A stretch of 64,000 nucleotides of DNA from Paucihalobacter ruber (GTDB lineage Bacteria; Bacteroidota; Bacteroidia; Flavobacteriales; Flavobacteriaceae), in contig NZ_VHIQ01000005.1 in assembly GCF_006494535.1 (NCBI RefSeq), positions 1-64,000 on the forward strand, written 5' to 3'. Positions 20,047 through 41,443 of this stretch are shown one piece after another; positions within the stretch are counted from its first letter, which is position 1; every line of letters begins with the position of its first letter. The notes below the pieces were generated by a model. The model saw nothing but the letters and a program-made list of their open reading frames with translations. It did no database searches and was not told the DNA's origin. Both the position numbers and the translations under genes were made by a program.

Positions 20047-23000
20047 TTATACTAGTGGTAGTATAATGGTAAATTGTGTTCCTTTCTCTTTATTGCTGTT
20101 TAAAATCAACTCACCCCCGTGCGCTTTCACAATATCGTAGCTAAGCGATAAGCCAAGACCTGTACCTTGCCCGGTTGGTTTTGTCGTAAAGAACGGCTGA
20201 AATATTTTGTCTTTGATAGCCTCAGGGATGCCGGGGCCGTTATCTGAAACGGTAATTTCAATACCGTTTTCCGCATGTTTGGTTGAAACTACAACTTTTG
20301 GATTTTCTATACCATTTACCGCTTGAAAAGCGTTATTAATCAGATTTAGCAATACCCGGCCGATATCCTGGGGCACTACCTTAACTTTAGGAAGGGTAGG
20401 GTCTAAGTTGGTTGAAAAATCGGCATTAAAACTTTTGTCTCTAGCCCTTAAGCCATGGTAAGACAGCCTTAAGTATTCATCTGCCAAGGCGTTGATATCG
20501 GTAGGTACTTTTTCACCCGAACCGGAACGGCTATGGGCGAGCATTCCTTTTACAATGCCATCGGCGCGTTTGCCATGGTGGGTTATTTTTTCGAGGTTTT
20601 GTTTGATGTCTGTTGCAATGGCCTTGGCTTCTTCTATAGCGCCTTTGTCTAATTCGTCATTCATTTCGTCAATCAATTCATTACTCACTTCGCTAAAGTT
20701 GTTGACGAAATTGAGCGGATTTTGAATTTCATGGGCAATCCCGGCGGTGAGTTCACCAAGACTAGCCATTTTTTCGGACTGTATCAATTGCTGTTGCGTG
20801 GCTTTTAAATCGTTGTACGCCTTTTCTATTTCTTTGGCCTGTTCTAATTCGCGTTCTTTAGCTTTTTCCCGTTCCTTTTTTATGGTTCTTTGTTTCTGAT
20901 AGGTGTGGACTTGCTTAAAAAGTAACAAAAGCAATACTCCATAAATACCATATGCCCACCAGGTGCGGTACCAGGGTGGTAGAACTGTAAATGCATAATC
21001 GGTTTCGCTCCAGATCCCGTAGGGGTTTAAGGCTTTAATTTTAAGCGTGTAATCCCCTTCATAAAGGTTACCATAATTAGCAATATTAGTTTGACCTAAC
21101 GGACTCCAGGCTTTATCAAAGCCTTCTAAAAAATACTGGAATTGCGTGCTTTTAGCCAGAAAGGGATCGACGGCTGAAAATTCAAAACTTAAGGAGTTGG
21201 CAGAGTAGGGCAGCTTTAGACCTAAAGGAATAAAATCATAAGGGACAAGACTATCATAACGCACAGAGGTAAAGGTTTTTTTTAATCGATCAAGTTCTTC
21301 TTCTGTTTTTTGTAGCCCAAATCTGGAATTCATTTCAGTTGAAGACACCAGCGTGTCATTGGCATATCTATCATTAAGGTGAGACCAGACGATGGACTCT
21401 CCATTAATACGAATATTAGTAACGGAAACTGGAAAAGCCCTGCTGTTCTCTTTTAGCGCAGGATAATCAAAACGGGCAAGACCGCCGTCTGTTGTGGTTA
21501 TCCATCCTACACCTTGTTGATCGACGACTAACCCTCTTCCTGACGGGATTGGAAACCCCTCTGCAGAAGAGAAATTTTCTACGACAAGACGATTGTTTAA
21601 AGAATCTAAACTAACTACACTAAGTCTATCACTCGATCCGCTTCGCAACCAAAACTTATTATTATGGTCATCTTTTAGGATTGTACCAATACTGCTTTCC
21701 TTTAAGCCATCGGCTTTTCCGTAATTGGTAAACACATTGTTAGACAAAATACTTAGCCCACCATCTGTCCCAATCCAGAGGTTATTATTGTCATCTTCGT
21801 TTATACTATTTACAACGTTATTTGGCATGCCATCTTTTACAGAGTAATTGGTAATCGTTTCATTATTATAATTATATAGCCCACCTTCACTACCTATCCA
21901 TATATTGCCTAAGTGGTCTTCAAAAACAGAACTAAAGTAAAAACCTCCTAAATTATTTGAAGATGTTATTTTCACTAAGGATTTACCATCAAAAGTTAAG
22001 AGGTTATAATTATTGTTCTGCTCTGAGCTTGTTAGCCATACTTTTCCTTTAGAATCAATAAGTTCTATAAAAACAAAACGTTCTTGTCCCATGTTATACG
22101 ATTGAAAATGGGTACCATCATATTTAGTAAGGAAAACTTCGTCTCGATTACCGTGGGTAAACCAAATATTTCCATGATTATCTTCTACTAGATTACCAAT
22201 GTTATTAATTGTCCCATAATCTTGCGTGGGTTGTTTTAAAAAGTTAAAATTGGTCAATGTGTTTCCATCAAAATGAAAAAGGCCATTAAAAAAAGAACCA
22301 TAAAAAAAATCGCCATTTACAGCCTGTATCAAACTTCTTAAAGAGCGATTCTGGTTTTTAGAATTATCCTCTATGAGATTGTCATAGGTTTTAATCGAGT
22401 TTTCAAATCTTCCCATAAAACTCTGACCAGTAACCCAAATATTACCTTTTTCGTCTTTATGAAGATCAAGCCGTTCTAATTTTTTAAGCTCAGGATTGTC
22501 ATAAAAATCAATACTTGTAAGAGCATTGGTTTTAACTATCCCATTTTCTGAGTAACTCCAAAGGGTATTGTGCTCATCTAATACGCCACGGAATAAGCTT
22601 TCATCATTTATTTGTGTGGACTTACCATCCTCAATAAGAAAAGTACCTTTAGGTGTTGATACATAAAAGCTGGTAGAATTTATAACTAGAACATCGTTAA
22701 TTTTATCCTCAGGAATGAGGTTTTTAAAGCTCACTTCTTCAAAAGTTCCATGATAAAGTTTGATCAATTTATCACTTCTACCATCAAAAAAGAAGGTACC
22801 GTCGTCACCAAAATCACTCACATTTGTTAATAACTCTAATGCTAAGCCTTCAATATTATAAGATGCCAATAATTCTTCACCCTGGTACTTTAATAATGTA
22901 TTATCAATAGTATTTAAATACCAAGTGGAATTTTTATAGCCTTTTGATATAAATTGAGTTAAACTACCGTCGTTTTCACTTTCTATAAAATTTAATTCTG

Positions 23001-23516: not shown

Positions 23517-26500
23517 TTAATTAGTCGGTATTAAAATACAAAAAGTTGTGCCAACTCCTTCTTTTGAGTCTACGTTTAATTCCCCACCATGCCCTTTGGT
23601 GATGATGTCATAACTCATACTTAAGCCTAATCCTGTGCCTTGTCCCGTAGGTTTGGTCGTAAAGAACGGCTGAAATATTTTGTCTTTGATAGCCTCAGGA
23701 ATCCCTGGGCCATTATCTGAAACGGTAATTTGAACAGTATTATCTATATGTTTAGTGGCAACTACAACTTTTGGATTTTCAACTTCTTTAACTGCCTGAA
23801 AAGCGTTATTAATCAAATTTAATAACACACGCCCAATGTCTTGTGGCACCACATTTACTTTTGGTAAATCAGGATCAAAGTCGGTTGAAAAATCTGCGTT
23901 GAAGCTCTTATCTCTAGCTCTTAAGCCATGATAAGACAATCTTAGGTATTCATCGGCGAGGGCGTTGATATCCGTCGGTACTTTTTCTCCCGAGTTGCTT
24001 CGGCTGTGGGCGAGCATTCCCTTTACGATGGCATCGGCGCGTTTGCCGTGGTGGTTGATCTTTTCGAGGTTTTGTTTGATATCTGCTGAAATAGCCTTGG
24101 CTTCTTCTATAGCGCCTTTGTCTAATTCGTCATTCATTTCGTCAATCAATTCATTGCTCACTTCACTAAAGTTGTTGACAAAGTTGAGCGGGTTTTGAAT
24201 CTCATGGGCAATGCCGGCAGTCAATTCTCCTAAGCTTGCCATTTTTTCGGATTGGATGAGTTGGCTTTGGGTGGATTTAAGGTTGCTAATGGTCTCCCGA
24301 AGTTCATTGGTTCTTTGAGTTACTTTTTCTTCGAGCAAGCGGTTTTCCTTTTTTAATTGCCTCGAGCGGTATTGAACGATAGCCCGGATGCCGCCAATGG
24401 TTATGATGGCATATGCCAGGTAAGCCCACCAGGTCTGCCACCAGGGCGGAAATATTCGAAAACTGAATTCAGCAGGGTCACCCCATTGGCCTTTGATTCC
24501 TCTGGTTGCAACGCTAAAGGTGTAGGCACCGGGTGAAAGATTATAGTAATTTTTGCTTTGAGGCTCCCGGCCGGCATAGATCCAGGCATCGTCTTCGCCT
24601 TCCAGCATATATCTGAATGAGATGTTGTCCCTGTTCAAGACACGCAGATCGGTAAAACTGAACCGCATGTAATTTTGATCATAAGGTAGTTTTAGCCCGA
24701 TGGGCAATTTATAAGGGCTTGACAGGCTGTCCCATCGCATTTGGTGTTCAAATACATATCCAGAGTCTTGCGGCAGCGTATTTTCTGTGAAGAGTTGATT
24801 GCCATCGCTGGACCACAAGGGATCTCCCGTTTCAAGATAGGGCCGGAAATCTGACATACGTTCGAAAGAGCGTTTCTCATCCATGATCGTCAGGCCGGTG
24901 ATGGAAACCGGATATGGCAAGGTGTCAATCACAGGATCTTGTGTAAGAATGTTCAATTTCCAAGTAGGCCCACTAACAAACCAAAGTTGCCCGTTAGGCA
25001 GAAGTAAGCTCGCTCTTCGGTTATAGTCATTTGAGAGGAAACCTTGAGCTGCGCTATAGGTGAAAAAATTCCAGGGCGTGTTTGGATCAGCGGGAGGATT
25101 TACCAGCGTGAGACCATCTACACTCCCTATGTATAGGGTGCTATCTTTTTGCTGTAAGCTGTACGCGACCTCCGGTACGAGTCCTTCTGCTTCCCCCAGA
25201 TTGGTGATGGTTTGACCGACAGGATCAATTATTGAAATGCCACCGTCTGTTGCCACCCACAATGTACCATCCTCCCTCTGTATGATCTCATGGACAGCGT
25301 TATGGGACAATCCTTCCTCTTCTCGTAAATATTGGATCGTATTTTTATCCGGGTCTATGATAACCAATCCATTGGTCGTGCCCAGCCAGTAACGACCTGA
25401 TCCATCATCGAGAATACAGCTTACCCAATCAGCATCTAATTGAGGAGACTCCTCCGGGATGGTCTTTAATCCATTTGATTCCGGATGATAAACTGCGAGT
25501 CCATTATCGGTGGCTAACCAATAGCTGCCCTTTTCGTCTTTGAGGGCGCCGAAAGTCCGTTGTGTAATGTTTTGATTTTTAAAATAGTGGGTTAGTAACT
25601 TTTCTGCACGATTGATGATGAGAAAACCCGGAGTTCCATCAACGAAAAAGTTATCTTTTTCTAATTCCTTGATGAAGAAAATATTATTTGAATTTGGGAT
25701 TTGTAAAATTGCCTCATCGATCGCTTTGAGGGTTTTGGTGGAAGGGCTATAAATATTAATGCCTTTAGGTGTGCCGAGCCAGATATCCCCGCGATGGTCT
25801 TCCTCTAAACTCCTGATTTGACCATCCATCAGTCCATCAGACTGTCCCAGCACCTCGGGTAAAGGTCCATCCGGATCCACCAGGAGGATTCCTTTCGTAG
25901 TAGTACCAATCCAGATGACGCCCCTTTTATCTTTTATCGTATTTCCAAATCTTATAGGACTGTTGGTCGCAATTGATTTCATTTTAGTGTAATCTCTGTT
26001 GATTATATGGATGCTATCACTATTGATCATCCATAATCTTCCTTGATTGTCTTCCTCATAAAATTGCGCATCGTCATAAAATTGCGCTTCTTCATTAAAT
26101 CCATCCCTCTCATTAAGGGTACGGACAGTTTTATCGTCTAATGAAATGCCATGGGCGCCACTTACAGAAGTCATCCACATCCTGTTATCACGATCCAGAA
26201 AATGATAGCCACCACTAGGCAGGATGTTTGTATAGTACTGTCTGTCTTCACCGATGATACTGGTTACGGTTTGATCCCCGTTTTGACTTAATAGCCAGAT
26301 ATTGTGATTCCTGTCCTCCATTAATGGATAATTGGGACGAATTCCTGTAAATCCGGTATTGGTGATTCGACGTAAATGCTCCATGTCACTATCCATGACA
26401 TAGGTGGCCTTTTGCCAATGGGTCATCCACATCCGATTTTGATGATCAGGAAGAAGTGAAAGGATTACCTCCGTCGACAGGAAATGGGTTTGGGTTTTTT

Positions 26501-27152: not shown

Positions 27153-30100
27153 GATAATTGATTGATTTTAACAGGCAAGTTAACAATAAATGTTGTACCA
27201 ACGCCCTCTTCAGATTCCATAATGAACTTCCCTGAATGCGCTTTCACAATATCGTAGCTAAGCGATAAACCAAGACCTGTACCTTGCCCGGTGGGTTTGG
27301 TAGTGAAAAATGGTTGGAAGATTTTATCTTTTATAGCCTCAGGAATCCCTGGGCCATTATCTGAAACGGTAATTTGAACAGTGTTATCTATATGTTTAGT
27401 TGCAATTACTACTTTTGGATTTTCAACTTCTTTAACTGCCTGAAAAGCATTATTAATCAAATTTAATAACACACGCCCAAAGTCTTGGGGCACTAAATTT
27501 ACTTTAGGCAGGGTAGGGTCTAGGTTGGTTGAAAAATCGGCATTAAAACTTTTGTCTCTTGCCCTTAAGCCATGGTAAGACAATCTCAGGTATTCATCGG
27601 CCAGGGCATTGATATCAGTTAAAACTTTTTCTCCCGAGTTGCTTCGGCTGTGGGCGAGCATTCCCTTTACGATGGCATCGGCGCGTTTGCCGTGGTGGTT
27701 TATTTTTTCAAGATTTTGTTTGATATCTGCTGAAATAGCCTTGGCTTCGTCAATATCGCCTTTGTCTAATTCATCGTTCATTTCATCAATCAATTCATTA
27801 CTCACTTCGCTAAAGTTATTGACGAAGTTTAAGGGATTCTGAATCTCGTGTGCGATGCCTGCAGTGAGCTCTCCAAGACTTGCCATTTTCTCGGATTGGA
27901 TGAGTTGAGATTGGGTAGATTTTAAATCTTCGAGAGAATGTACAAGCTCTTCAGATTTTTTCTTTAATGCGCTAGTTCGCTCTTCCACTGTTTGTTCCAG
28001 CTTTTTCTTTTCTGCTATCAGCTTCCTTTCCCTCCACTTACTAAAAATTCTCAGCACCAATAAAAACAACAGAACGTATATCAAATACGCCAACCACGAT
28101 TGCCACCATGGTGGATTTATAGTAAACGTATATTTAAATGGCTCACTCCATACTTCACTCTCTCCAATGGCTCTGATTTGAAAGGTGTAAGTGCCGTAGG
28201 GCAGGTTACGGTAGTCTGCTTTGGCTTCCCTTGTAGGATTGCTCCAATTATCATTGAGTCCCAGCATAAGGTAACTGTAGTGTATTTTATGCGGAGCATT
28301 CCAATCTATGGCCGCAAAATGAAAGGTGAGGTGGTTTTTATGGTAGGGCAACTCTAAATTGAGCGGGTAGTTCTCAAATTTTTGCACGCTTTTAAATGCT
28401 ATTTCATTACCCAGGCTATCTGAAATATTGCGGTAGTCTAGAAACTGCTCATTGATATCCAATTGTTTTAATAATGGTTGTGGTATTTGAGCAGATGGAT
28501 TAAACTTGTTTAAATCCAACATAGTTAAACCCTTACCGCTTCCCCACCAGGCACGGTTTTTACTATCGATTAATGCAGAATTATGATAAAAATCTAATCC
28601 TTTAAGGCCATCTTGTGTGCCAAAAACTTGTATTGCAAACACTTCTCCTCCTTCGATGGAAGCAGGGAGCGGGCTAATTTGCGTAAGCCCTTTTACTGTA
28701 GTTATGTATAAATTCCTGTTGTTATCTTCTAAAATAGACCTGACTCTATTATTACTCAAGCCGGCCGCCTCGGTAAAATGAACGAATGATTCACCATTAT
28801 ATTTAGATACGCCTCCGCCTTGAGTGCCAAACCAAAGGTTTCCGCTTTTATCTTCTAAAATAGACCAAACGCTATTATTATTTAAGCCTTCTTTCTCGGT
28901 AAAATGAACGAACGATTCACCATCATATCTCGATACGCCCCCGCCATCAGTGCCGAACCAAAGGTTTCCGCTTTTATCTTCTAAAATAGACCTGACACTA
29001 TTATTACTCAAGCCGGCTGCCTCGGTAAAATGAACGAATGATTCACCATTATATTTAAATACGCCTCCGCCTTGAGTGCCGAACCAAAGGTTTCCGCTTT
29101 TATCTTCTAAAATAGACCAGACTCTATTATTACTCAAGCCGGCTGCCTCGGTAAAATGAACGAATGATTCACCATTATATTTAGATACGCCTCCGCCTTG
29201 AGTGCCAAACCAAAGGTTTCCGCTTTTATCTTCTAAAATAGACCAGACAATATTACCACTCAAGCCGGCTGCCTCGGTAAAATGAACGAATGATTCACCA
29301 TCATATTTCGATACACCTCCGCCCCAAGTGCCGAACCAAAGGTTTCCGATTTTATCTTCTAAAATAGACGTGACGCTATTATCACTCAAGCCGGCTGCCT
29401 CGGTAAAATGAACGAACGATTCACCATCATATTTCGATACACCTCCGCCCCAAGTACCAAACCAAAGGTTTCCGCTTTTATCTTCTAAAATAGAGCTGAC
29501 TTCATTATTACTCAAGCCGGCTGCCTCGGTAAAATGAACGAACGATTCACCATCATATTTCGATACACCTCCGCCATAAGTGCCGAACCAAAGGTTTCCG
29601 CTTTTATCTTCTAAAATAGAAAGGACAATATTATTAGTCAAGCCGGTTGCCTTGGTAAAATGAACGAACGATTCACCATCATATTTCGATACGCCTCCAC
29701 CCCAAGTGCCGAACCAAAGGTTTCCGCTTTTATCTTCTAAAATAGACCAGACATTATTATCACTCAAGCCGGCTGCCTCGGTAAAATGAACGAACGATTC
29801 ACCATCATATTTCGATACGCCTCCGCCTTCAGTGCCGAACCAAAGGTTTCCGCTTTTATCTTCTAAAATAGACCTGACTCTATTATTACTCAAGCCCGCT
29901 GCCTCGGTAAAATGAACGAACGATTCACCATCATATTTCGATACACCTCCGCCATCAGTGCCGAACCAAAGGTTTCCGCTTTTATCTTCTAAAATAGACC
30001 TGACATCATTATTACTCAAGCCGGCTGCCTCGGTAAAATGAACAAACGATTCACCATCATATTTCGATACGCCTCCGCCTTGAGTGCCAAACCAAAGGTT

Positions 30101-30862
30101 TCCGCTTTTATCTTCTAAAATAGACCTGACTCTATTATTACTCAAGCCGGCTGCCTCGGTAAAATGAACAAACGATTCACCATCATATTTGGATACACCT
30201 CTGTCTAAAGTACCGAACCAAATGTTTCCGCTTTTATCTTCTAAAATAGAGCTGAGATAAGAGGACCCCATACCTTGGTCCACATCAAAATATTGTAAAT
30301 TGGTAAGGGCATCTTTAAAAGCCGGGGGCAGGGCTTTGGTGGGTAAGGGTTGTATGGCTTTTACTGTTTTGCCCCGGGCAGGTATAGGTATGCCGGTGGG
30401 TATGGTGTCACCGCTGGAATTAATTAAAACAAAATCTTTGTTGCCTTCGCCAAATTTCACAGTTTTAAGTTGGCTGTGGTCCACTTTGATAGTGGGGATG
30501 TTTTCGGGTATTTTGTGTCGGTTGGGGTGGGCATTTACTTTGACAAGCTCAGTAACCGCCTTGACCACTCTGGGACTGGCAACACTGTCCGGGTGAATGA
30601 GTTTTCCCCTTGCGGGTATGGGTACACCGGTGATGAGCGTGTCGCCACTGCTCAAAATGATGGGTTCGATGCTATTGCCTGTTACCGGGTTTATGGCATA
30701 ACCACCTTCGGGATTGGCTGCAATGGTTTGGGGTTGCGGAAAGAGAGGTGCGAGGGTGGTTCCGTCATCTTTTGGGCTGCGGTTGCAGGCGGCAAATAGC
30801 AAAAGCAGAAGGATGAAATGTATTTTCCTGAAAAATTGTGATGTTGTTGTTCTCATAGTCAT
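27149..30862 (-). CDS. Reg_prop/Y_Y_Y sensor histidine kinase with 12 near-identical blades
   Basis: The protein has 1237 residues from the ATG at 30862, chosen because it gives a normal lipoprotein signal (LFAAC) and begins one base after the preceding frame; an ATG at 30907 would add 15 residues. The N-terminal 150 residues and the 12 x 42-residue propeller repeats closely match the HTCS at 15321, but the C-terminus is a plain kinase: membrane helix, coiled coil, [16 protein letters not shown] and ATPase domain. So one sensor type is joined to two output types in the same cluster. First intact gene of the three-kinase unit. Confidence 0.9.
28733..30244 (-). repeat. 12 x 126-bp tandem repeats inside a sensor kinase gene
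   Basis: Twelve units of exactly 126 bp encode Reg_prop blades. They are more uniform than those at 17697-19208: most changes fall at the residue after FGT (E, W, Q, D, Y) and at NN-x-V-x-SI. Confidence 0.9.
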
Positions 30863-30863
30863 T

Positions 30864-31347
30864 TTATATGGGTAATTCAATGGTAAATGTAGCGCCTTCA
30901 TTTTCATTTGATTCTATTTTTATTGATCCTCCGTGCGCTTTCACAATATCGTAAGATAAGGATAATCCCAATCCGGTTCCTTGTCCGGTGGGTTTTGTGG
31001 TGAAAAAGGGTTGGAATATTTTGTCTTTGATAGCCTCAGGAATCCCCGGTCCGTTATCTGAAACGGTAATTTGAACAGTATTATCTATATGTTTAGTGGC
31101 AACTACAACTTTTGGATTTTCAACTTCTTTAACTGCCTGAAAAGTATTATTAATCAAATTTAATAGCACACGCCCAATGTCTTGTGGCACCACATTTACT
31201 TTTGGTAAATCGGGATCAAAGTCGGTTGAAAAATCTGCGTTAAAATTTTTGTCTCTTGCCCTTAAGCCATGATAAGACAGTCGCAGGTATTCATCGGCCA
31301 GGGCATTGATATCAGTCAAAACTTTCTCTCCAGTGCTGTTTCGGCAT
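30864..31347 (-). pseudogene. histidine kinase fragment (ATPase domain only)
   Basis: The frame encodes about 157 residues matching the neighbours' kinases from NSGEKV onwards, through NLINNTFQA, DNGPGIP and [10 protein letters not shown] to the normal C-terminus. The sensor, membrane helix and phospho-acceptor His are missing. Homology begins at the stop codon of the transposase gene (31348-31350), so the element's insertion, or a deletion at its edge, removed the 5' part. A 174-residue product could start at 31379 inside the transposase gene, but it could not autophosphorylate. Confidence 0.75.
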
Positions 31348-31809
31348 CTACTCAAGTTCATTGAAAATATATTGTTCATCGTAATCAATTTGAAATTCTT
31401 TTAAACATTTAAGATACTCTTCTTTGAAAGATTCCTTTCTGTGATGGGCTTCTTGATTTTGAATGTATTTAAAAATCATATCCACATCGCGTTGCCTGTA
31501 AGAAAATACACCGTAGCCGGTTTGCCATTCAAAACGTTGCGGAGTTAGTGCATGATCATTGATGTATTTTGATGATTTGGCCTTTACAGATTTCATAAGA
31601 TCAGAAATGGCAACAACGGGTCTTAAACCAAAAAAGCAATGCACATGATCTTCAACCCCATTTACAATGATGGTTTTACAATTGCTTTCGTTAATCAAAT
31701 TGCCAATAACTGCAAGTAGTTGAGGGCGCCATTCCTTTTTAAGAACAGCTCTGCGGTACTTTACTGCGAATACCGCTTGGATGTAAAGTTGGTGATACGT
31801 GTTTGCCAT
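31348..31809 (-). CDS. IS200/IS605-like Y1 transposase (RAYT type)
   Basis: A 153-residue protein with the HUH motif in EDHVHCFFGL and the likely nucleophilic Tyr in FKYIQNQEAHH near residue 115. These are the active-site elements of single-strand Y1 transposases (TnpA_IS200 and REP-associated transposases). It is complete in length. Beside it is a REP-like array of 10 units of paired palindromes, the substrate type expected for RAYTs, which favours a domesticated REP-processing enzyme over a free insertion sequence. It separates the giant kinase gene from a kinase fragment. Confidence 0.85.
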   Translation of the reverse strand: MANTYHQLYIQAVFAVKYRRAVLKKEWRPQLLAVIGNLINESNCKTIIVNGVEDHVHCFFGLRPVVAISDLMKSVKAKSSKYINDHALTPQRFEWQTGYGVFSYRQRDVDMIFKYIQNQEAHHRKESFKEEYLKCLKEFQIDYDEQYIFNELE

Positions 31810-31853
31810 AGTATGTCTTTTTTTTGTTGGACCGAGGTCCGGGTTTTATGCAC

Positions 31854-32529
31854 CAGACTGAAGTCTGACGTCATAAGATGTGCCGAGCCTACGGCTCTGC
31901 TGGTTACTTACTTTGTCTCTCACACCAGACTGAAGTCTGACGTCATAAGATGTGTCGAGCCTACGGCTCTGGTGGTTACTTACTTTGTCTCTCACACCAG
32001 ACTGAAGTCTGACGTTATAAGATGTGTCGAGCCTATGGCTCTTTTCTTTTCTTTCTTTTGCGTCGGACTGAAGTCTGACGTCATAAGATGTGCCGAGCCT
32101 ACGGCTCTGCTGGTTACTTACTTTGTCTCTCACACCAGACTGAAGTCTGACGTTTCAAGATGTGTCGAGCCTACGGCTCTGGTGGTTACTTACTTTGTCT
32201 CTCACATCAGACTGAAGTCTGACGTCATAAGATGTGCCGAGCCTACGGCTCTTTTCTTTTCTTTCTTTTGCGTCGGACTGAAGTCTGGCGTCATAAGATG
32301 TGTCGAGCCTACGGCTCTGGTGGTTACTTACTTTGTCTCTCACACCAGACTGAAGTCTGACGTCATAAGATGCGCCGAGCCTACGGCTCTGGTGTTTACT
32401 TACTTTGTCTCTCACATCAGACTGAAGTCTGACGTTATAAGATTTGTTGAGCCTACGGCTCTTGTCTTTTCTTTCTTGTGCGTCGGACTGAAGTCTGACG
32501 TTTTAAGATGTGTTGAGCCTCTGGCTCTC
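31854..32529. repeat. REP-like array, 10 units, spacing 72-72-66 bp
   Basis: Each unit has a CAGACTGAAGTCTG-type palindrome, a spacer near CGTCATAAGATGTG, and a GAGCCTACGGCTC palindrome. Units start (GACTG) at 31856, 31928, 32000, 32066, 32138, 32210, 32276, 32348, 32420 and 32486. Two linkers alternate: a TGGTTACTTACTTTGTCTCT type (72 bp) and a CTTTTCTTTTCTTT type (66 bp), giving a 210-bp higher-order repeat. Because 72, 66 and 210 are multiples of three, long false reading frames run through it. Confidence 0.92.
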
Positions 32530-32546
32530 ATTTTGTTTCTATCTCA

Positions 32547-32634
32547 GAGCCGTAGGCTCGAAACGTTTTTGTATAGTTGGACTTCAGTCCAACGCGACTC
32601 CCCCCTCCTGCGTGCAACTTAGTGCCGTAGGCAC
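32547..32634. repeat. inverted end of the REP-like array
   Basis: The array ends with the two palindromes in the opposite orientation: GAGCCGTAGGCTC at 32547-32559 and a GTTGGACTTCAGTCCAAC form at 32576-32593, then a related GTGCCGTAGGCAC at 32622-32634, only 12 bp before the giant kinase's stop codon. On the transposase side a GGACCGAGGTCC palindrome is at about 31828-31840. The array is thus bracketed by inverted, diverged copies. Confidence 0.75.
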
Positions 32635-32645
32635 GATTCATACAA

Positions 32646-35600
32646 TCATCGGGGTAAATGAATAACAAACACAGTCCCTGCATCTTCTTTCGTTAGTATT
32701 TTTAATTCGCCTCGATGTGCCTTAATAATGTCGTTTGTAATGCTCAATCCCAAACCGGTACCCTCAGTTCCTTTCTTGGTAGTGAAAAATGGCTGAAGGA
32801 TTTTATCTTTGATGGCATCAGGAATGCCGGGACCATTGTCTTCTACTTCAATAACAATGGCATTGGTTTGTTGTTTGGTACGCACCGTTAGTTTTGCCGG
32901 TCGATGATCTACGGTTTCCCGCATGGCATCGAAGGCGTTGTTGGTGAGATTGAGGATCACCCGGCTAAAATCTTCACCGATTAGAGACACGGTTTCGATG
33001 TTAGGATCGAGTTGTAAATCGATAGCAACATTGATGGGGTTTTTCTTGGCGCGCATGCCGTGAAACGACAAATTGGTATATTCTTTAATAAGCGCATTCA
33101 AATTTGTAGCTTCCATTTTACCACTGCCACCGCGACTGTGTTGCAACATAGATTTTACAATACTATCGGCGCGGGTGCCGTGTTCATGTACTTTGCTGAG
33201 GTTGCCTTTTACATCGTCTAAAATGGCTTTAATGTCTTCCTTAACATCAGAGTCCTCTAATTTTTCTAACTCCTCAAATACTTCATCGATTAGCTCATTA
33301 CTGACTTCGCTAAAGTTGTTGACGAAGTTGAGCGGATTTTTAATTTCATGCGCAATGCCTGCGGTAAGCTGCCCTAAACTGGCCAGTTTTTCTTGCTGTA
33401 CCAGTTGCGTTTGGGTCGCTTGCAGCTCCTTAAGTGCCTCTTCTGCTTTTTGCCGGGCTTGTTTAATGGCAATTAAATCTTTTTCGGCTTGTAAGGCTTG
33501 TTTTTCTGCGATTTTTAAATCGTTAAAACGCGTATAGGTTAAATTAAATACCGCTGCAAACCGCTCTAATAGGTCTATGGTTTGTTGTGGTTGTTCTTCG
33601 GGTGCCGCCATACCAATTAAACCTCCCGAAAAATAGGCTATGGTCTGAACGCGTCTTTTTTGCTGCAAACCATGAATAAATGGTATCTGCATGACCGTGT
33701 TTAAATAGTGAAAATAGTCTTGCAGCTCCTTACCGCTCATGTCAATAATGGCAGATTTTTTTTCTTGCTTCCAGGCGTCAACCATTTTTTGAATGGATTT
33801 GTTTTCTGCAGGATGGAGTTGAAAGTGTTTTTCAATTTTACTGCCGTCTTCATTGGTTGCCCAGGCTTCAATAGCTTTACCCTTGTCTTTAATGATTCCA
33901 ATAAATAAACGATTAGGGGCAATGCCTAAATTTAAAAGTTCTTTAAAAACGATGACAGAGGTATCTGCCAATTCTGAACTGTGTGCCATGGTCATGGTTC
34001 TGGATCTTACCTTTTCAAGTGCCATTTCAATTTGGGCTTCACGGGCACGCATTTCAGCTTTTTGCAAATCGCGAAAACGGGTGTAGGCAAATGAAAATAC
34101 GGCCGTAGCTCTCTTTAACAGGTCCCAACTTTCTTCTGAAATGTCCCCGGGAGCGGCAGCGCCTATAAAGCCATCCGAAAATTTGTTGAGGTGATAAGTA
34201 CGGGTAGGGATGGTATTACCATAAAATTTGCTGGTTGAAAAATGTGTTGATTGTTCTTCGCAATATTGTATCCATTCTATGCGATGCTTTCCTGTCATCA
34301 CAATAGAAGTACTAGGTGATGAAGATTTGTAAAACGATTGCATTTTTCTACCTACCCATGTGGCCTTTAAATCAATAGTCATTTGATCGGAAACAGATTT
34401 ACCATCTTTCTCGTTTTTGATGGTAAACCAACACTGGGTGGAGTCGTTCTCCTTATCGTGAATATAAATAGAACTGGTTTCTAGCGCTTCAACACCCAGA
34501 GCACCCATTTCTTCCCGAAGCAATTGTGCTACTTCAATAATTTCAGCAGGACTTTGCATGGCTAAGGATCTGGATCGCACTTTCTCAAGGGCATTTTCTA
34601 TTTGTGCTTCTCTTGCCTGTGCTTCGGCTTTTTGTAAATCTAAAAAGCGTATATAAGCCTGTTCAAATACCTGAGCAAATCGCGGTAAAATATCCATGTT
34701 CTCAATGGGTTTGAGTGAGGACACCAAGATATAGCCATGTTTAAACGAGGCACCGTAATCTATCTCCCACGGTGGTGGTGCGGGCATGGGTGCGTTACGG
34801 GATTCTAAGTCCTTTATGGTGATTTGAGCAGAGGGTAACTTAAAAATATCTTCAAAATGCTGTTCAATAAAATCACTTGGAATTTCAATTGAAAATAGGG
34901 GATTGCCTGCTTTCCATTGGTCATAACGGTATTGATGGATATAATCCAAATCAATCGGCACAATCATAGGGCTTAGCATACCGGCACCCGGAATACTGTG
35001 CCATTGCTCTACATGGCCTTCAAGCTTATCGCAAAACACAATGCCTGTGGCAAATAGATCTTCACCAAAGTTTCGCAATTGGTTAAACATTTCGGTGGTG
35101 ACATTGGCAAAATCTAAGGTGCTTTGCATGCCCATGGAATGCGAACGTACGCGCTCTAATGCCGTTTGTATTTGAGCCTCTCGTGCGCGCGCTTCGGCTT
35201 TTTGAAGATCGAGGAAACGGGTATAGGTTTGATCAAATACTTTGGTAAAGCGTTTAAAGATGTCGTGCGCATCAGGAACCTTTTCATAGGTAATAAACAG
35301 CAGAAAACCGTGACTAAATTTACACAGATGATTGATCTGGTAGGTGGGTAGCGACAGTCCGAGCCTGTCTATTTCATCAAAAGTTGGTTTTAGATCCGGG
35401 AAGGATTTCATATGGGCATAGTGCGACACTAAGGCTTTTCCGCCGAGCTCTTGCACCAACATGTCCTTACCATTGTTCATAAATTCTCCCATCTCGTCGA
35501 AGGATGCTTCACCCCAAAGGCGAAGCTGAAATGGTGTTTGCAAGGTTCCTTCGCTACTCATAGCGCAGGTTGCAGTTGTGAGATCTTCGTTTAAAATATT

Positions 35601-38600
35601 GTACCCACAACTCCAGGCGTTAATGCCAAGTGCCTGCACTTCCAGAAACAACATATTGGCTACTTCAGGCAGCTCATCACTAGACTGCATACCCATGGTG
35701 CGGGAGCGCACTTTTTCGAGGGCAACCTCGATTTGTGCTTCGCGCGCTTGTTCTTCGGCTTTTTTTAGGTCGAGGAAGCGGGTATATGTTTGATCAAATA
35801 CTTTGGCGAAGCGTTTAACTATGTCGTTCTCGGCCTCTGAATATGGTATACCTTGGTAATTAAGGACAAACAATGAAATGTTATTCATGAACACCTGTGA
35901 GCGAGCGACACCAGGACTATTCAAAATATATTGTTGTCTTTCTTCTGGAACCCATGGCGCATGTTTGAAAAAGTGTTTCCACATGATATTTTTTTCATCA
36001 AATGGGAACGTATCTGCTAAAAACTCAATTTGTTTTTCTCTTGCCTTTTTATGACTGTTAAACATTGGGTGATCTAAATAAGGAATTTCAAACAACCGGG
36101 GGTAGAGGTTGCCGGGTGTGCCAGTCCAAAGTTTCCAATCATCTCTTAATTTGTAATCCAATTGAAAGTTGGCAGAGTCAATGTTTAAATTGAGATGGTT
36201 CAATTGCTCAAACACTACTTGAATCACTTCCTTGAGTTCATCACTTTTATGCATAGCCATACTTCGGCTGCGAACTCTCTCCAATGCCGCTTCAATCTTT
36301 GCTTCCCTCGCCTGCGCTTCTGCTTTTTGAAGGTCCAGAAAACGTGTATAGGCTTGTTCGAAGACTCTACCAAAACGTTCTAGGATTTCCAGTTCGTCTT
36401 CAGATATAGGATTAACACTCACCGTTTGTAGTCCGCTATACTTGAAGAATGTAAAGCCGGCTACATAGCGTTCAAGGGCTTTGTTGGCTTCCTGAATGTG
36501 CTTTGGAAAACGTCTAAATTCAGTATCATTATAAAGATATTCATCATATATTTTTTTCTCTTCTCCTTCTAAGGTATAGACAAATCGCTTTTTTTGATCT
36601 TTCCAGGCATCCCACATAGCGTGATGAAATGGATAATCTTCAAATTTCATGTAATAAGACTCAGGGTCTTTACCGGTTTCGGGATTAGCGGCCCACACCG
36701 TGTTGCTCATGTCTTTTTCATCAATCAAATTGATGATACAGAAAGTGAGCGTGAATTCGAGATTGGTAAATTCCTGCAAAAGTGTATCAACCACAGCAGA
36801 TAATTCTGATGAATGATGCATGGCCAAACTGCGGGATCTGACTCTTTCCAAAGCCGCTTCAATTTTTGCCTCTTTTGCTTGTGCTTCGGCTTTTTCTAGA
36901 TCCAAGAAGCGGCGATAAGCCAAATCAAATGCCGCCCCCATTTTTGGTAAAATAAACTCCATTTCAGCAGGCGGTGGAACAGTAAAATCCAGATTAAGTT
37001 TTCCTTTTTCCAATTGAACAGTTGGATGCCAGGTGTGTTCTATTTTTGCGGCTCTAATAAATTCCCTGTAATTATCTGCTGCGGTTTCATCAAACTCCCT
37101 GATCCATTTTTCACATTTGATAAAGTCATCGCCACTCATTTCTATCACACTGTATTTTTTACTTGCATTCCAAATTCTTCTCACCCATAAGCCCGGGTCA
37201 GTATCTTCTAACCTGAATGTGAAATCAGAGCTTAGCTGCGGTTCTTGTTCCGATTCTTTTAATTCTGTAATATCCCATACTCTAATTTTGTTGTCATCGT
37301 GCTCAAGGTAAATGGTTGCCGCGGTTATGCCGCTTAAATTCAAACCTTCCATTTGTTCTTTAAGCGTCATTGCCACCTGTAGTATCTCTGCTGATTTATG
37401 CATGGCGAGTGCTTTTGCCCTAACTCTTTCAACAGCCACCTCAATCTGTGCTTCACGAGCCTGAACTTCGGCTTTTTGAAGGTCGAGGAAACGGATAAAG
37501 GATTGTTCAAAAACTTTGGCAAAACGTTTTAAAATGACTACTTCATCTGTTGAAGGAACTACCCCGGTGTGCGAGGGAATGAGTATGGCGGAATTCTTCT
37601 GCCAGGCGAACGAAAGGATGTGTTGGTCGTTTTGAAATATCCACTTCTTAAAGTCTTCCGGGAAATGCTTGTAATCAGAATATTCAAAAGCATACTCAAA
37701 AAAACTGTTTTTATCTTCAATTGAATAAGCTTTTGAAAAATACAACGCGCCGCTTTCTCTGGATTGCCATGCGTCATTAAAAATAGGATGGTCAAAATAG
37801 GGTAGCAGATAGCTACCGGCAAAACTAAAATCAGGAGCCGCAATCCAATGTAATACATCTTTTGAATCAGTAAAATAGGTACACAGCACGACGCCATTGG
37901 CGTCTAATACGACATCTAGTTCTTTCAATTTCTCTACAATTATGCTAACCACTTCTCCCAGTTCATTTGGGGTATGCATGGCCAATGACCGGGACCTTAC
38001 TTTTTCGAGGGCGGCTTCTATTTTTGATTCTTTTGCCTGTTCCTCTGCTTTTTTGATATCAAGATAGCGGGTATAAGTTTGCTTAAATTCTTTTGAAAAG
38101 CGTTCAAAAATTGAAAGTTCCTCTTCTGTGAAGGGTTCCAGATCCGAGCGAACTATGGAAACGGTTACGTTTTCCAAAAATGCATCGACAATGGTCGAAC
38201 CAGGGTTTGCATATACCAATTCCCTGACCTTTTCTGGAACAGCAGGTGCATATTTCCAATAGTGATCAAGAAATTCGTCTTTCTCCTCTTTTGTAAAAAA
38301 TTTCGTTTGGATAGGGTTGCCGGTCTTTATATACTCCTCTACAGCGATTGCTGTTTTGGTGAAGTATGGCGTATCAACGTAAGGAATGTGAATTTTGCGT
38401 GTGAGGTTGTCGGCACCAGGAATATGACTCCATAATTCCCAATCTCTATCTTTTGTAATGGCTCCTTCAATAAAGGTAACGTCGGTGAACCTCACATTCA
38501 GATCAATAAGTTGTTGGCCGAATAATTCTACAATGCCAAGTAGGTCTGACTGGGTTTTCATCGCCATAGTTTTGGCCCTGACTCTTTCCAGTGCTAGTTG

Positions 38601-40259
38601 TATTTGTGCTTCCCGTGCCTGCGCTTCTGCCTTTTGCAGATCTAAGAAGCGCGTATAAGCTTGTTGAAACACCTTGCCAAAGCGCATTAAAATAGCATTC
38701 TCTTCGTCTGAAAACGGAGTGCCGCTATAATTTTCTATATACAATCCGACGTTATCTAAAAGCACCGTTGAGATGGCCAAACCTTCAAAATCAAAATAGA
38801 TATTTTTTGTTACTTCAGGCAAATCTGGAATAAACTGAAACAGGTCTTTATAGAATTTATTTTTTTCTTGAAACCCTAATTGGTTGCTAAAGAAATTTTG
38901 TCCTGTTTTCTTGGCTTCAATAAAGTTATTCCAATGCGCGCAATCAAAATAGGGCAATACAATCTTTGGAAATACGGCATTATGGTCGGCTAACCAAATA
39001 TGCATATCCTCATTTTCTTTGTAATCTAATATAAAACCGGCATGTTCCACTTTGACCTGCAATTGCACGAGTTGGTCATAGACGACTTGGATAACTTCCT
39101 TGAGCTCATCACTTTTGTGCATGGCCATGCTTCGGCTACGTATTTTTTCAAGCGCTAATTCTATTTGGGTTTCGCGAGCTTGATTTTCTGCTTTTTGTAG
39201 GTCGAAAAAACGTTGATGCGCCAAGTCAAAGGCACTTGCAAACTTTACTAAAATATCGATGTCTTCTTTTGGCGGGTTTTCAACTACCCCCGGTAAACTA
39301 TAGCCTATTTCTCCGTGAGTGGTTCTTGCCATAATAAAGGTCAAGCCGCCGATATGTCTAATATCGTCATGAGAAGGCGCTTGAGGGTCTATATTTTTGA
39401 AATCACCAAGTGATACCATTTTATCAACATAATCAATAGCTTCATCAACCGTCATGGTGTAGACAACAGTTGGTTTTTTGCTTTTTTCCCATTTGGCCAA
39501 TTGTGGAATATTACCATGGATATGTCTTGGTAGTTGCATGACAAAACCAATTTTAGTTCCATCGCCAGAGGTCATGGCTTTTTCGTAGGTTTCGGGTAGC
39601 CACATCATATGCCAGAAATAATGCGCTTCGTGGCCTAGTTTAATAAATTCCTTGCGCATGGTGACCACAATATCAAGCAAGTCTGAAGACTCCCTCATGG
39701 CGACGGCTTGCGCACGAATACGTTCTAATGCTGCTTCAATTTCCAGTTCTCTATTTTTTACAACAAGGTCTGCTGTTCTTTCGGCTACCAGATTTTCCAG
39801 TTCTTCTGCTTTTTCTTTCCAGCTTTGCACGCCCCATGTATCTTTTTCACTTTCTACATGCTCCGGCTTTGAGCCATGCCAATGCACTACCATCCATTTA
39901 TCGTCTGCATATTCCATCACTATTGAAAATCGCAAATATATTTCTATAGGGTTATCGTCTACTATCAGGTAAAGTGTTATTTCATTGGTAAAAATGGCTG
40001 TATTTTCATCGGATGAGATATAAAGATCGAGCGTGTTGATTTTCCAACTTAACGCCATACCTGCACTTTGTTCCTTTTGCCTCAACAACAAGTCACGCAA
40101 CTCTTTCACCCCGAATAATTTTTCATCCACAGTAGTGCCAAATCCCACCACGTCCTTAGACACAATATCTTCAAGTATTTCTAAATTTTCTCCGCTTAGT
40201 CCTACCTCTATAAATGAATTAAAGGTGTTATTTAACAGTTCTCTTTTTTGTTTTTTCAT
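32646..40259 (-). CDS. giant soluble histidine kinase with NTF2-like domain and 11 GAF-like repeats
   Basis: The protein has about 2537 residues from the ATG at 40259; the longer frame starts with GTG. Residues about 1-145 form an NTF2/SnoaL-like domain, then a coiled coil, then 11 repeats of roughly 190-200 residues. Each repeat opens with a linker helix of the form ALERVRSRSMAMHKSDEL and closes with YTRFLDLQKAEAQAREAQ; the domains between look like GAF folds and have diverged strongly. The C-terminus has a phospho-acceptor His in [16 protein letters not shown] and an ATPase domain (NLTNNAFDA, DNGPGIP, GTEGTGLGLSI). No signal or membrane helix. It probably integrates many ligands or forms a long rod. 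It follows a sensorless kinase and four FIST genes in one apparent operon. Confidence 0.88.
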   Translation of the reverse strand: MKKQKRELLNNTFNSFIEVGLSGENLEILEDIVSKDVVGFGTTVDEKLFGVKELRDLLLRQKEQSAGMALSWKINTLDLYISSDENTAIFTNEITLYLIVDDNPIEIYLRFSIVMEYADDKWMVVHWHGSKPEHVESEKDTWGVQSWKEKAEELENLVAERTADLVVKNRELEIEAALERIRAQAVAMRESSDLLDIVVTMRKEFIKLGHEAHYFWHMMWLPETYEKAMTSGDGTKIGFVMQLPRHIHGNIPQLAKWEKSKKPTVVYTMTVDEAIDYVDKMVSLGDFKNIDPQAPSHDDIRHIGGLTFIMARTTHGEIGYSLPGVVENPPKEDIDILVKFASAFDLAHQRFFDLQKAENQARETQIELALEKIRSRSMAMHKSDELKEVIQVVYDQLVQLQVKVEHAGFILDYKENEDMHIWLADHNAVFPKIVLPYFDCAHWNNFIEAKKTGQNFFSNQLGFQEKNKFYKDLFQFIPDLPEVTKNIYFDFEGLAISTVLLDNVGLYIENYSGTPFSDEENAILMRFGKVFQQAYTRFLDLQKAEAQAREAQIQLALERVRAKTMAMKTQSDLLGIVELFGQQLIDLNVRFTDVTFIEGAITKDRDWELWSHIPGADNLTRKIHIPYVDTPYFTKTAIAVEEYIKTGNPIQTKFFTKEEKDEFLDHYWKYAPAVPEKVRELVYANPGSTIVDAFLENVTVSIVRSDLEPFTEEELSIFERFSKEFKQTYTRYLDIKKAEEQAKESKIEAALEKVRSRSLAMHTPNELGEVVSIIVEKLKELDVVLDANGVVLCTYFTDSKDVLHWIAAPDFSFAGSYLLPYFDHPIFNDAWQSRESGALYFSKAYSIEDKNSFFEYAFEYSDYKHFPEDFKKWIFQNDQHILSFAWQKNSAILIPSHTGVVPSTDEVVILKRFAKVFEQSFIRFLDLQKAEVQAREAQIEVAVERVRAKALAMHKSAEILQVAMTLKEQMEGLNLSGITAATIYLEHDDNKIRVWDITELKESEQEPQLSSDFTFRLEDTDPGLWVRRIWNASKKYSVIEMSGDDFIKCEKWIREFDETAADNYREFIRAAKIEHTWHPTVQLEKGKLNLDFTVPPPAEMEFILPKMGAAFDLAYRRFLDLEKAEAQAKEAKIEAALERVRSRSLAMHHSSELSAVVDTLLQEFTNLEFTLTFCIINLIDEKDMSNTVWAANPETGKDPESYYMKFEDYPFHHAMWDAWKDQKKRFVYTLEGEEKKIYDEYLYNDTEFRRFPKHIQEANKALERYVAGFTFFKYSGLQTVSVNPISEDELEILERFGRVFEQAYTRFLDLQKAEAQAREAKIEAALERVRSRSMAMHKSDELKEVIQVVFEQLNHLNLNIDSANFQLDYKLRDDWKLWTGTPGNLYPRLFEIPYLDHPMFNSHKKAREKQIEFLADTFPFDEKNIMWKHFFKHAPWVPEERQQYILNSPGVARSQVFMNNISLFVLNYQGIPYSEAENDIVKRFAKVFDQTYTRFLDLKKAEEQAREAQIEVALEKVRSRTMGMQSSDELPEVANMLFLEVQALGINAWSCGYNILNEDLTTATCAMSSEGTLQTPFQLRLWGEASFDEMGEFMNNGKDMLVQELGGKALVSHYAHMKSFPDLKPTFDEIDRLGLSLPTYQINHLCKFSHGFLLFITYEKVPDAHDIFKRFTKVFDQTYTRFLDLQKAEARAREAQIQTALERVRSHSMGMQSTLDFANVTTEMFNQLRNFGEDLFATGIVFCDKLEGHVEQWHSIPGAGMLSPMIVPIDLDYIHQYRYDQWKAGNPLFSIEIPSDFIEQHFEDIFKLPSAQITIKDLESRNAPMPAPPPWEIDYGASFKHGYILVSSLKPIENMDILPRFAQVFEQAYIRFLDLQKAEAQAREAQIENALEKVRSRSLAMQSPAEIIEVAQLLREEMGALGVEALETSSIYIHDKENDSTQCWFTIKNEKDGKSVSDQMTIDLKATWVGRKMQSFYKSSSPSTSIVMTGKHRIEWIQYCEEQSTHFSTSKFYGNTIPTRTYHLNKFSDGFIGAAAPGDISEESWDLLKRATAVFSFAYTRFRDLQKAEMRAREAQIEMALEKVRSRTMTMAHSSELADTSVIVFKELLNLGIAPNRLFIGIIKDKGKAIEAWATNEDGSKIEKHFQLHPAENKSIQKMVDAWKQEKKSAIIDMSGKELQDYFHYLNTVMQIPFIHGLQQKRRVQTIAYFSGGLIGMAAPEEQPQQTIDLLERFAAVFNLTYTRFNDLKIAEKQALQAEKDLIAIKQARQKAEEALKELQATQTQLVQQEKLASLGQLTAGIAHEIKNPLNFVNNFSEVSNELIDEVFEELEKLEDSDVKEDIKAILDDVKGNLSKVHEHGTRADSIVKSMLQHSRGGSGKMEATNLNALIKEYTNLSFHGMRAKKNPINVAIDLQLDPNIETVSLIGEDFSRVILNLTNNAFDAMRETVDHRPAKLTVRTKQQTNAIVIEVEDNGPGIPDAIKDKILQPFFTTKKGTEGTGLGLSITNDIIKAHRGELKILTKEDAGTVFVIHLPR

Positions 40260-40342
40260 CTGTTTATCTTTATTGTTTTTTAAGGTCAGATGTAACACTT
40301 ATATTCATTCTGCTTTTTGTATAATAATTATTCATGAGTGTT

Positions 40343-41443
40343 TCATTTTAATGGTAATTGTATAATAAACTTAGTACCAGTTGTAACCTCTGTTTGTTCT
40401 TGGAGATTTTCTATTGATTTAGTTTCCACTTTTAAGGCACCACCATGTGCCTTCACAATATCATAACTCAAGCTCAATCCCAAACCCGTGCCTTGTCCGG
40501 TAGGTTTTGTGGTGAAAAAGGGTTGAAATATTTTATCGACGATGGCTTGGGGAATTCCGTTGCCATTGTCTTCCACTGATATCAATACGTTGTTGTTTGA
40601 TTTTTTGGTGCTTACTGTAACTGTGGGTTCATAATTTTCCGGTTGTTGCTTCTTTTTTTCCGTCACAGCATAAAACGCGTTAGTGATGAGGTTTAAAACT
40701 ACGCGACCAATATCTTGTGGCACAATGTTGATGTTTTCTATAGAATCGTCTAAATGTGTCTCTAATGCAGCATTAAACGATTTGTCTTTGGCCCGTAAGC
40801 CATGATAAGCCAGGCGTAAATATTCGTCTACCAGAACATTGATATTGGTGTCTTCTTTGGTACCTGAGCTGCTGCGGCTGTGTTGTAGCATGCCTTTTAC
40901 AATACCATCGGCCCGTTTGCCGTGGTGGTTGATTTTTTCTAGATTGGATTCTATATCGTCTAGGATGGTTGATATGTCATCTAACGCATCTTCGGGAATG
41001 GGCCTATCGCGATAGGCCCTTACGGTGTCTAGTACTTCGCGTACTTCTTGCATCAGTTCCACAGATACTTCTGAGAAGTTGTTCACGAAGTTGAGCGGGT
41101 TTTGGATTTCATGGGCAATGCCTGCAGTGAGTTCACCTAAGCTTGCCATTTTTTCAGATTGAATTAATTGCGATTGGGTGGCTTTTAAGTCCTGTAAAGA
41201 TTTTTGCAATGCTTGGTTAGAATCTTCAATGGCTTTTCGTTTTTGTTCCAGCTCTTCTATGGTTTCTTCTAACAAAATAGCGGTGGTACGTTTTACCTTT
41301 TCGGTACGCTCGAGTTTGAATTCTGAGATTGTCAAATCTTTATCGGCATTTTTCAGGGATTTGATAAGTGTTGCTTTGTCGTCATCAGATATTTGATTAC
41401 TGCTTTCAATAAAATCTAATATGTGTTTGAGATTTTGGTTCAT
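40343..41443 (-). CDS. soluble histidine kinase without a sensor domain
   Basis: A 366-residue protein. Residues about 1-100 are charged and coiled-coil-like with no recognisable sensor; then phospho-acceptor His in [16 protein letters not shown] and an ATPase domain ([26 protein letters not shown]). It lies 35 bp downstream of four FIST genes and just upstream of the giant kinase. The obvious reading is that stand-alone FIST proteins supply its input. A 20-bp palindrome sits in frame at 41000-41019, encoding part of an extra segment (RAYRDRP) absent from the related kinases. Confidence 0.88.
   Translation of the reverse strand: MNQNLKHILDFIESSNQISDDDKATLIKSLKNADKDLTISEFKLERTEKVKRTTAILLEETIEELEQKRKAIEDSNQALQKSLQDLKATQSQLIQSEKMASLGELTAGIAHEIQNPLNFVNNFSEVSVELMQEVREVLDTVRAYRDRPIPEDALDDISTILDDIESNLEKINHHGKRADGIVKGMLQHSRSSSGTKEDTNINVLVDEYLRLAYHGLRAKDKSFNAALETHLDDSIENINIVPQDIGRVVLNLITNAFYAVTEKKKQQPENYEPTVTVSTKKSNNNVLISVEDNGNGIPQAIVDKIFQPFFTTKPTGQGTGLGLSLSYDIVKAHGGALKVETKSIENLQEQTEVTTGTKFIIQLPLK
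41000..41019. repeat. perfect 20-bp palindrome inside a kinase gene
   Basis: A perfect palindrome centred on CGCG (arms GGGCCTATCG and CGATAGGCCC) inside the coding region of the sensorless kinase, at a place where paralogues in this window lack the encoded residues. Confidence 0.85.

Follow-up and report, generated by a model that had tools for sequence, protein, structure and literature searches.

A tandem array of paired-hairpin repeats beside an IS200-class Y1 transposase gene in Paucihalobacter ruber: candidate REPtron-like repeats of one transposase clade

What kind of repeat is the dense palindrome array that lies between a giant histidine kinase gene and a Y1 transposase gene of Paucihalobacter ruber, and does it belong to that transposase? 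The locus is part of a stretch of 64,000 nucleotides (positions 1 to 64,000 of contig NZ_VHIQ01000005.1, assembly GCF_006494535.1), here called the window, and an earlier note made from its letters alone had read the locus as a REP-like array next to its likely transposase. We consider it probable that the units are the cognate REP-like repeats of one clade of TnpAY1 subclass 1.2 transposases, forming a REPtron-like system whose array in the window was locally amplified and whose locus lost one flank.

Architecture of the array and its neighbourhood

Ten palindrome pairs make up the array, spaced exactly 72, 72 and 66 nt three times over on the + strand of the window sequence (Table 1), and TRF reports a period of 210 bp (score 1185, 93% matches) with which a repeat finder agrees. 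Each pair forms one 47-nt unit that reads on the - strand as hairpin B, a 14-nt spacer and hairpin A. Hairpin B is GAGCC-GTA-GGCTC or a close form with a 5-bp stem, and hairpin A is CGTCAGAC-TTCA-GTCTGGTG or a close form with an 8-bp stem. The base directly before the unit is A in 10/10 array units, the foot tetranucleotide is ATGA, ATAA, GAAA or AAAA with no GTAG-type foot in the array, and hairpin A starts with CGTC, paired within the stem, in 9 of the 10 units.

Linker lengths between units recur as 25, 25 and 19 nt, always in this sequence, and the 210-bp blocks are 97% (first and second), 93% (second and third) and 94% (first and third) identical, from which we conclude that duplication also involved the three-unit block as a whole. 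It is the linkers and the spacing that establish the block order, since the 47-nt units carry no phase signal (0.906 vs 0.900 in a phase comparison). Growth of the array would have taken two steps, duplication of the unit and then of the three-unit block, with unequal recombination or slippage as the simplest route.

Most of what the earlier note had claimed about the array itself is borne out. Palindrome positions and the TRF period agree with its ten units spaced 72-72-66 three times, linker order and block identity (93-97%) with its amplified three-unit block, and the Y1 transposase gene that it placed alongside is found there. Its statement that the array abuts the stop codon of the giant kinase is also correct, the last hairpin ending at 32634, 11 nt from the ORF end at 32646. 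The inverted, diverged palindromes that it saw at both ends are present at the right end, as a whole unit and a B-type hairpin; at the left end there is one palindrome of indeterminable orientation, and the claim holds clearly for the right end alone. Of the long false frames announced for both strands, the one on the + strand is real (300 aa, 31720-32622; one stop within the 825 nt tested), and the - strand has only frames of 95 and 86 aa.

Table 1. Features of the transposase locus, with coordinates in the window
Feature	Position	Strand	Evidence or remark
3' fragment of histidine-kinase gene	30864-31345	-	HATPase_c; DNA paralogues
Y1/HUH transposase gene, 153 aa	31348-31809	-	Pfam Y1_Tnp PF01797, E 1.9e-28
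Lone palindrome GGACCGAGGTCC, between array and transposase start	31829-31840		match at 31830 to palindrome A, at most 2 mismatches
Unit 1, nearest the gene	31851-31897	-	covariance model R1, 53.6 bits
Unit 2	31923-31969	-	R1, 54.7 bits
Unit 3	31995-32041	-	R1, 57 bits
Unit 4	32061-32107	-	R1, 55.4 bits
Unit 5	32133-32179	-	R1, 56.8 bits
Unit 6	32205-32251	-	R1, 56.4 bits
Unit 7	32271-32317	-	R1, 50.6 bits
Unit 8	32343-32389	-	R1, 52.3 bits
Unit 9	32415-32461	-	R1, 55.9 bits
Unit 10, most diverged of the ten	32481-32527	-	R1, 42.8 bits; 79-87% identity to other units
Starts of palindrome A	31856, 31928, 32000, 32066, 32138, 32210, 32276, 32348, 32420, 32486	+	window sequence
Three 210-bp blocks (72+72+66), higher-order repeat	31856-32485		TRF, spacing, block alignment
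Whole unit, inverted and diverged, far array end	32547-32593	+	R1, 49.7 bits
Diverged B-type hairpin GTGCCGTAGGCAC, beside giant kinase stop codon	32622-32634	+	R1, 20.9 bits for 32622-32646

The array is intergenic and follows directly after the stop codon of the giant histidine kinase (32646-40298, - strand), a protein of 2550 aa built for the most part from a row of many sensor segments that look alike and ending in a single kinase core. Kinase C-termini like that of the giant kinase lie at 9376-10218, 20056-20856, 23526-24347, 27173-28045, 30870-31370 and 40415-41260, one of them being the fragment listed in Table 1. TRF also finds 126-bp tandem repeats of about 12 copies each and nearly the same consensus at 17687-19214 and 28722-30255 of the window, and the latter encodes two-component-regulator propeller blades of a sensor kinase. 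A tRNA scan of the window found none.

Behind the transposase gene, the kinase fragment is 89% identical in its DNA to 23622-24004 and 87% to 27237-27648, and its homology to these paralogues ends at the transposase stop codon or a few nt from it. Many relatives have a downstream unit at the very place where the kinase homology stops in the window, which suggests that the window locus lost its downstream flank, probably in a rearrangement that left the kinase 3' fragment behind. Units flank the gene on the upstream side only in the window and on both sides in relatives. An empty-site comparison within the genus used the sole other genome (of two), which has no match to the kinase and so offers no empty site to set against the window locus.

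Searches of the P. ruber genome found the units at this one site. A DNA pattern search with 0-1 mismatches matched the palindromes in the array and nowhere else, and the matches with two mismatches outside the array (7 for A and 20 for B) are near the level of the reversed-pattern control (6 and 14). Among the best-scored candidates of the covariance model described below, there are at least 11 matches in this genome, all at 31851-32593, and neither the pattern search nor this model search of best-scored candidates yielded dispersed copies of the unit. The REP trait of many dispersed copies was thus not seen in the window genome, where the array is the only site found.

Class of the transposase

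The window protein scores 74 bits with the NCBIfam IS200/IS605 model, above the cut-off of 55, and 25 bits with REP_Tyr_transpos, below the cut-off of 80. It carries the motifs DHVH, WQ and YIQNQEAHH. The best structural matches of its AlphaFold model (mean pLDDT 88) are ISDra2, IS608 and other IS200-type transposases (Z 12.5-13.9), and the REP-associated 4er8 scores Z 10.6. Membership among the RAYTs or TnpAREP proteins (class 2) was rejected on the REP_Tyr_transpos score and on the tyrosine motif, which is without NP.

The available part of a published census (Quentin 2018, PMC6006769) describes TnpAY1 subclass 1.2 by DH[VI]H, WQ, Y---Q--HH and a conserved C-terminal tail, as low-copy, as IS200-like but devoid of IS traits and as found mostly in Cyanobacteria and Bacteroidetes, with typical IS200 end structures generally absent and the REP entry "no" in Table 1, absences that the paper observes and does not use to define the subclass; there, the REP/REPtron phenomenon is tied to class 2 and, with atypical structures, to class 3. 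The window protein shows a HuH motif of the form DH[IV]H, the W motif WQ, Y---Q--HH and low copy number, its gene having one match in the window genome and 1-6 matches of any kind in 21 relatives. Y...Q..HH is likewise present in the best aligned segment of 76 out of 80 related loci. The C-terminal tail of about 30 residues, in which F127, E130 and L135 are invariant and Y131, Y146 and F148 nearly so (30 aligned sequences), is a match in kind and not one by the paper's own HMM. Judged by these sequence features, the window transposase is of the TnpAY1 subclass 1.2 type and IS200-class. Our literature search, which covered few subscription journals, found no description of REPs or hairpins of this transposase group; in RepRanger (PMC12306157), the available text does not contain the word "transposase" and has three Bacteroidota genomes in a table.

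Paired hairpins at the same gene in relatives

We fetched 80 of 101 relatives' loci, of which those of one genus are not independent and neither are the pairs L030/L079 and L055/L090, each naming one isolate. The flanks of the first 28 loci revealed the same design in many cases, built from other stem sequences. Searched for geometry alone (5-bp stem, 3-nt loop, 8-24 nt, then a stem of at least 6), the sample gave 220 pairs in the 149 kb that lie less than 1 kb from the gene and 34 in the 332 kb more than 1.5 kb away, with 1.47 pairs per kb observed as compared to 0.039 per kb in block-shuffled flanks. By this measure, 60 out of 80 loci have paired hairpins within 1 kb.

Covariation counts on alignment A1 are partly circular because its rows were chosen for perfect stems, and pairing-blind and held-out tests were therefore made. 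CRTAG pentamers have all four outer bases paired at 181/563 sites near the gene and at 8/619 far from it (Fisher p 5e-55), and after ATnTTGTAR 7 or more of the 8 stem pairs are present at 73/131 near and 0/46 far sites (Fisher p 1e-13); these two tests involve no selection on pairing, and Fisher counts sites in them, not independent events. The covariance model R1, built from 47 units (3 from the window and 44 from 28 loci), gave 140 matches on the 52 held-out loci, of which 135 are less than 1 kb from the gene and 3 more than 1.5 kb away. Of the held-out loci, 28/52 have a unit within 1 kb, distributed by identity to the window transposase as 16/16 at 60% or more, 9/13 at 50-60% and 3/23 below 50% (2/18 at 40-50% and 1/5 below 40%).

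The same dependence on the clade appears at the level of genomes. In 21 relatives' genomes, a unit among the best 150 matches listed lies within 2.5 kb of 16/22 transposases of at least 55% identity and of 0/34 below, with six partial transposase matches of 62 left out of the count. One of these, a split gene of 67% identity in genome G705, has no unit within 2.5 kb among the matches listed and would change the first figure to 16/23 if counted; its locus (L101) has model matches at E 1e-10 and weaker that are outside the best 150 listed. In an evenly drawn set of 395 genomes from the class, at least 21 have model matches at E <= 1e-4 among the 15 candidates scored per genome, including 4/4 of the further genomes for which a transposase of 60% identity or higher is listed, as compared to 16/390 of the rest. 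All but one of the 21 (the exception being G127) have a transposase match at E <= 1e-10. An exact 14-mer search of 395 genomes of the class matched 8 and was too strict, since the stems vary.

These results decide what becomes of the central claim of the earlier note. The link between palindromes and transposase holds, as the unit flanks the same clade in many Bacteroidota by geometry and in the held-out loci, and the REP-like reading is supported with two refinements: the palindrome pair is one 47-nt unit of two halves, and by its sequence the transposase falls outside the RAYTs. Palindromes elsewhere in the genome, which the note proposed to look for, were not found, the pattern and model searches having yielded the array only. 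The note had named as grounds for giving up its reading that the palindromes be absent elsewhere and also be unrelated to the targets of the transposase in relatives. Absence elsewhere is true of this genome as far as searched; unrelatedness to the transposase flanks of relatives is false, because units of this type stand beside transposases of this clade in many Bacteroidota. Chance palindromes forming an ordinary satellite or VNTR, placed beside a transposase by accident, would agree with the lack of units elsewhere in the window genome, but the held-out loci and the near/far tests place the unit type at the same gene in many genera; this explanation is largely refuted by them and we regard it as very improbable.

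The units of relatives keep their pairing through extensive sequence change. Model matches near genes of at least 50% identity comprise 17 different B stems and 63 different A stems, with two or more A stems within the locus at 30/44 loci, and the A loop of the same group is TTTA or TTCA in 148 out of 151 matches. Stems so varied around a constant A loop suggest that shape, A loop and spacer may matter more than the sequence of the stem. The B loop is GTA or ATA in only 95/183 matches, though R1 was trained on units with these loops; the model favours the loop forms named here, A and B alike. Immediately before hairpin B, at a position outside the model, the base is A in 98% (264 units from 56 loci, weighted by locus), and GTAA/GTAG is the commonest foot only, at about 19 out of 44 loci of relatives (locus-weighted). 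Stems with a single mismatch have 9 G-T/T-G and 15 other mismatches, a ratio that does not decide between RNA and DNA. As aligned sequences suggest, the mobile unit would be about 48 nt of one strand, composed of an A, hairpin B (a 5-bp stem with a closing C-G pair and a loop of three bases that is often GTA or ATA), a spacer close to GAC..ATATTGTA(A/G) and hairpin A (an 8-bp stem with the loop TT(T/C)A).

The units nearest to the gene point inward from both sides in 37/41 held-out cases, being + upstream in 20/21 and - downstream in 17/20. The training loci, not used as evidence, gave + upstream in 21/23 and - downstream in 20/25 (150/176 matches aligned). Tandem arrays within 1 kb of the gene occur at 22 of the 80 loci. 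In three Dyadobacter records, orientation within the array alternates in the manner of BIMEs, strictly at L037 3150-3876 and L045 3131-3595 and mostly at L049 3383-3744.

There are exceptions within the clade and hints beyond it. L074 and L075 have neither model nor geometric units among the 57 loci of at least 50% identity, and two further loci at this level have no model matches. Subclass 1.2-type relatives more distant than the clade tested are mostly without model matches. Hairpin pairs with weak model scores or none stand near more distant transposases (36-45%) at L104 (Paludibacteraceae), L086, L089 (Schlesneria) and L097 (Pirellula), and the unit design may reach beyond the clade tested.

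Dispersed copies, movement and known systems

Relatives carry units far from any transposase gene. Model matches range from at least 3 to at least 57 per genome at E <= 0.01 (22 genomes, 150 candidates scored in each), and the best 150 matches in these genomes divide into 61 within 2.5 kb of a transposase match and 89 beyond, none of the latter in the window genome. The extragenic location typical of REPs was found in three relatives (G324, G694 and G692), where 19 of the 20 stretches fetched contained a match and 47/51 matches are outside called ORFs; 4/51 are inside, though ORFs make up 76% of the DNA.

Dispersed extragenic matches with an ORF on both sides (n = 41) lie between convergent genes in 12 cases, between co-directional genes in 15 and between divergent genes in 14. 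The first two figures would suit RNA-level elements, that is, transcription terminators or stem-loops that protect mRNA, sited behind the giant kinase gene and in other places, for which the place beside a transposase would be secondary, and so would an array directly after the giant kinase stop on the same strand as kinase and transposase, and stems that are kept despite change, as RNA would need too. Divergent neighbours do not fit this explanation; neither do units that follow one transposase clade and point inward from both sides, and the spacer, A loop and leading A (98%) are strand-specific, unlike the T-run of a terminator. No Rfam family was matched at gathering level in five sources. 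We judge an origin as RNA-level elements unlikely.

How much DNA the dispersed copies share bears on what moves. At one site in G324, 12/12 alignments with other copies extend over no more than 48-49 nt, and four sites in G694 share 47, 48, 51, 51, 52 and 59 nt pairwise; this sharing at near unit length implies that some copies are little more than the unit with its leading A, and the 48-nt unit thus seems to move alone. Four sites in G692 share 47 to 186 nt, and hence not every copy is a lone unit. Other copies in G324 share up to about 500 bp and look like deletion derivatives of a larger element.

Another explanation is a plain IS200-type insertion sequence, in which the hairpins would be left and right ends and the array a multiplied end. 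The protein is nearest to IS200/IS605 transposases, hairpins flank its gene, and two G324 copies (L162 and L167) hold a possible remnant of the last ~30 codons of the transposase, a weak signal at E 4.5e-4 and 2.5e-4. In IS608-type elements, however, both end hairpins are read on one strand, and here the units on the two sides of the gene are in inverted orientation; a single match to the gene exists in the window genome, and relatives have many units away from any transposase match. The typical IS200 element, which would occur as several nearly identical full copies with end hairpins on one strand, was rejected on the single gene match and the inverted flanking units of relatives, and the plain insertion sequence as a whole appears quite unlikely to us.

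For the REPtron-like reading that we prefer, movement could begin where a strand becomes single, for example in lagging-strand synthesis, and both hairpins would fold. The HUH/Tyr enzyme would then bind them by shape, loops and spacer foot and not by stem sequence, nick beside the hairpins and move the unit. In the window such a REPtron-like locus would now stand alone, its downstream flank lost and a kinase 3' fragment left. A further-reaching proposal, which we put forward tentatively and think rather doubtful, is that subclass 1.2 represents a line of REP-type transposases with its own origin among IS200 enzymes, independent of the RAYTs, and that the 48-nt double hairpin is a complete minimal transposon with B and A as its ends, excised and inserted as single-stranded DNA, whose arrays would grow by insertion of multi-unit circles.

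Among known systems, the REPtron-like repeats share with IS200/IS605 elements (IS608, ISDra2) the protein fold, the motifs and hairpins beside the gene, and differ from them in the single gene match, in hairpins that are inverted and not on the same strand, and in dispersed units free of a gene. As described in the available parts of the REPtron literature (RAYT/TnpAREP with REP, BIME and REPIN; Nunvar 2010, PMC2817692; Quentin 2018, PMC6006769; Corneloup 2021, PMC8266576), REPtrons resemble the present system in an HUH/Tyr gene flanked by inverted short palindromic units, in a low-copy gene with dispersed extragenic units, in GTAG/GTAA at one hairpin foot for many relatives and in arrays of alternating orientation for some. 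Against the same descriptions, the transposase here is IS200-class, with a tyrosine motif that lacks NP, and not class 2, the unit consists of two unlike hairpins in fixed order and seems to be moved as a single 48-nt unit and not as two inverted REPs, copy numbers reach up to tens (lower bounds), and the foot in the window is not GTAG.

Subclass 1.2, as outlined in the available text of PMC6006769, agrees in DH[VI]H, WQ, Y---Q--HH, the C-terminal tail, low copy number and occurrence in Bacteroidetes; as published there, with its REP entry "no", it differs from the one clade found here with consistent flanking paired hairpins that are not typical IS200 ends. CGTC-tagged REPs, which the available part of their description reports without a dedicated transposase (Di Nocera 2013, PMC3733652), are likewise short extragenic hairpins that occur in Bacteroidetes too, and CGTC starts hairpin A of the window; in contrast to them, the window CGTC is within the stem, and the commonest foot of relatives is GTAA/GTAG. 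What is new is the existence of REPtron-like repeats with a double-hairpin unit that are tied to an IS200-class group described as having none. An orphan transposase group thereby gains a likely DNA target, so that its function becomes directly testable, and an IS200-class branch is added to the REP/REPtron phenomenon. If the 48-nt unit does spread singly, as it appears to do, it would be a very small mobile DNA unit and a simple substrate on which to study REP movement.

Some units stand without a transposase of their own. In G127, which has three matches, no transposase match reaches E <= 1e-10, and no transposase was found near the units at the sites fetched from G127 (2), G546 (3), G302 (1) and G680 (1). 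Dispersed units are numerous in G324, yet the stretch fetched for its best transposase (46-47%; L170) contains none. Such orphan units would be explained by loss of the gene, but also by another mover. In G324, one 48-nt unit (L166 1211-1258) lies in frame within an ORF of 609 aa, of which it makes up 16 codons; the family of G324 was represented by this genome alone, and its low-identity paralogues are in places shorter at this point, no more than a hint.
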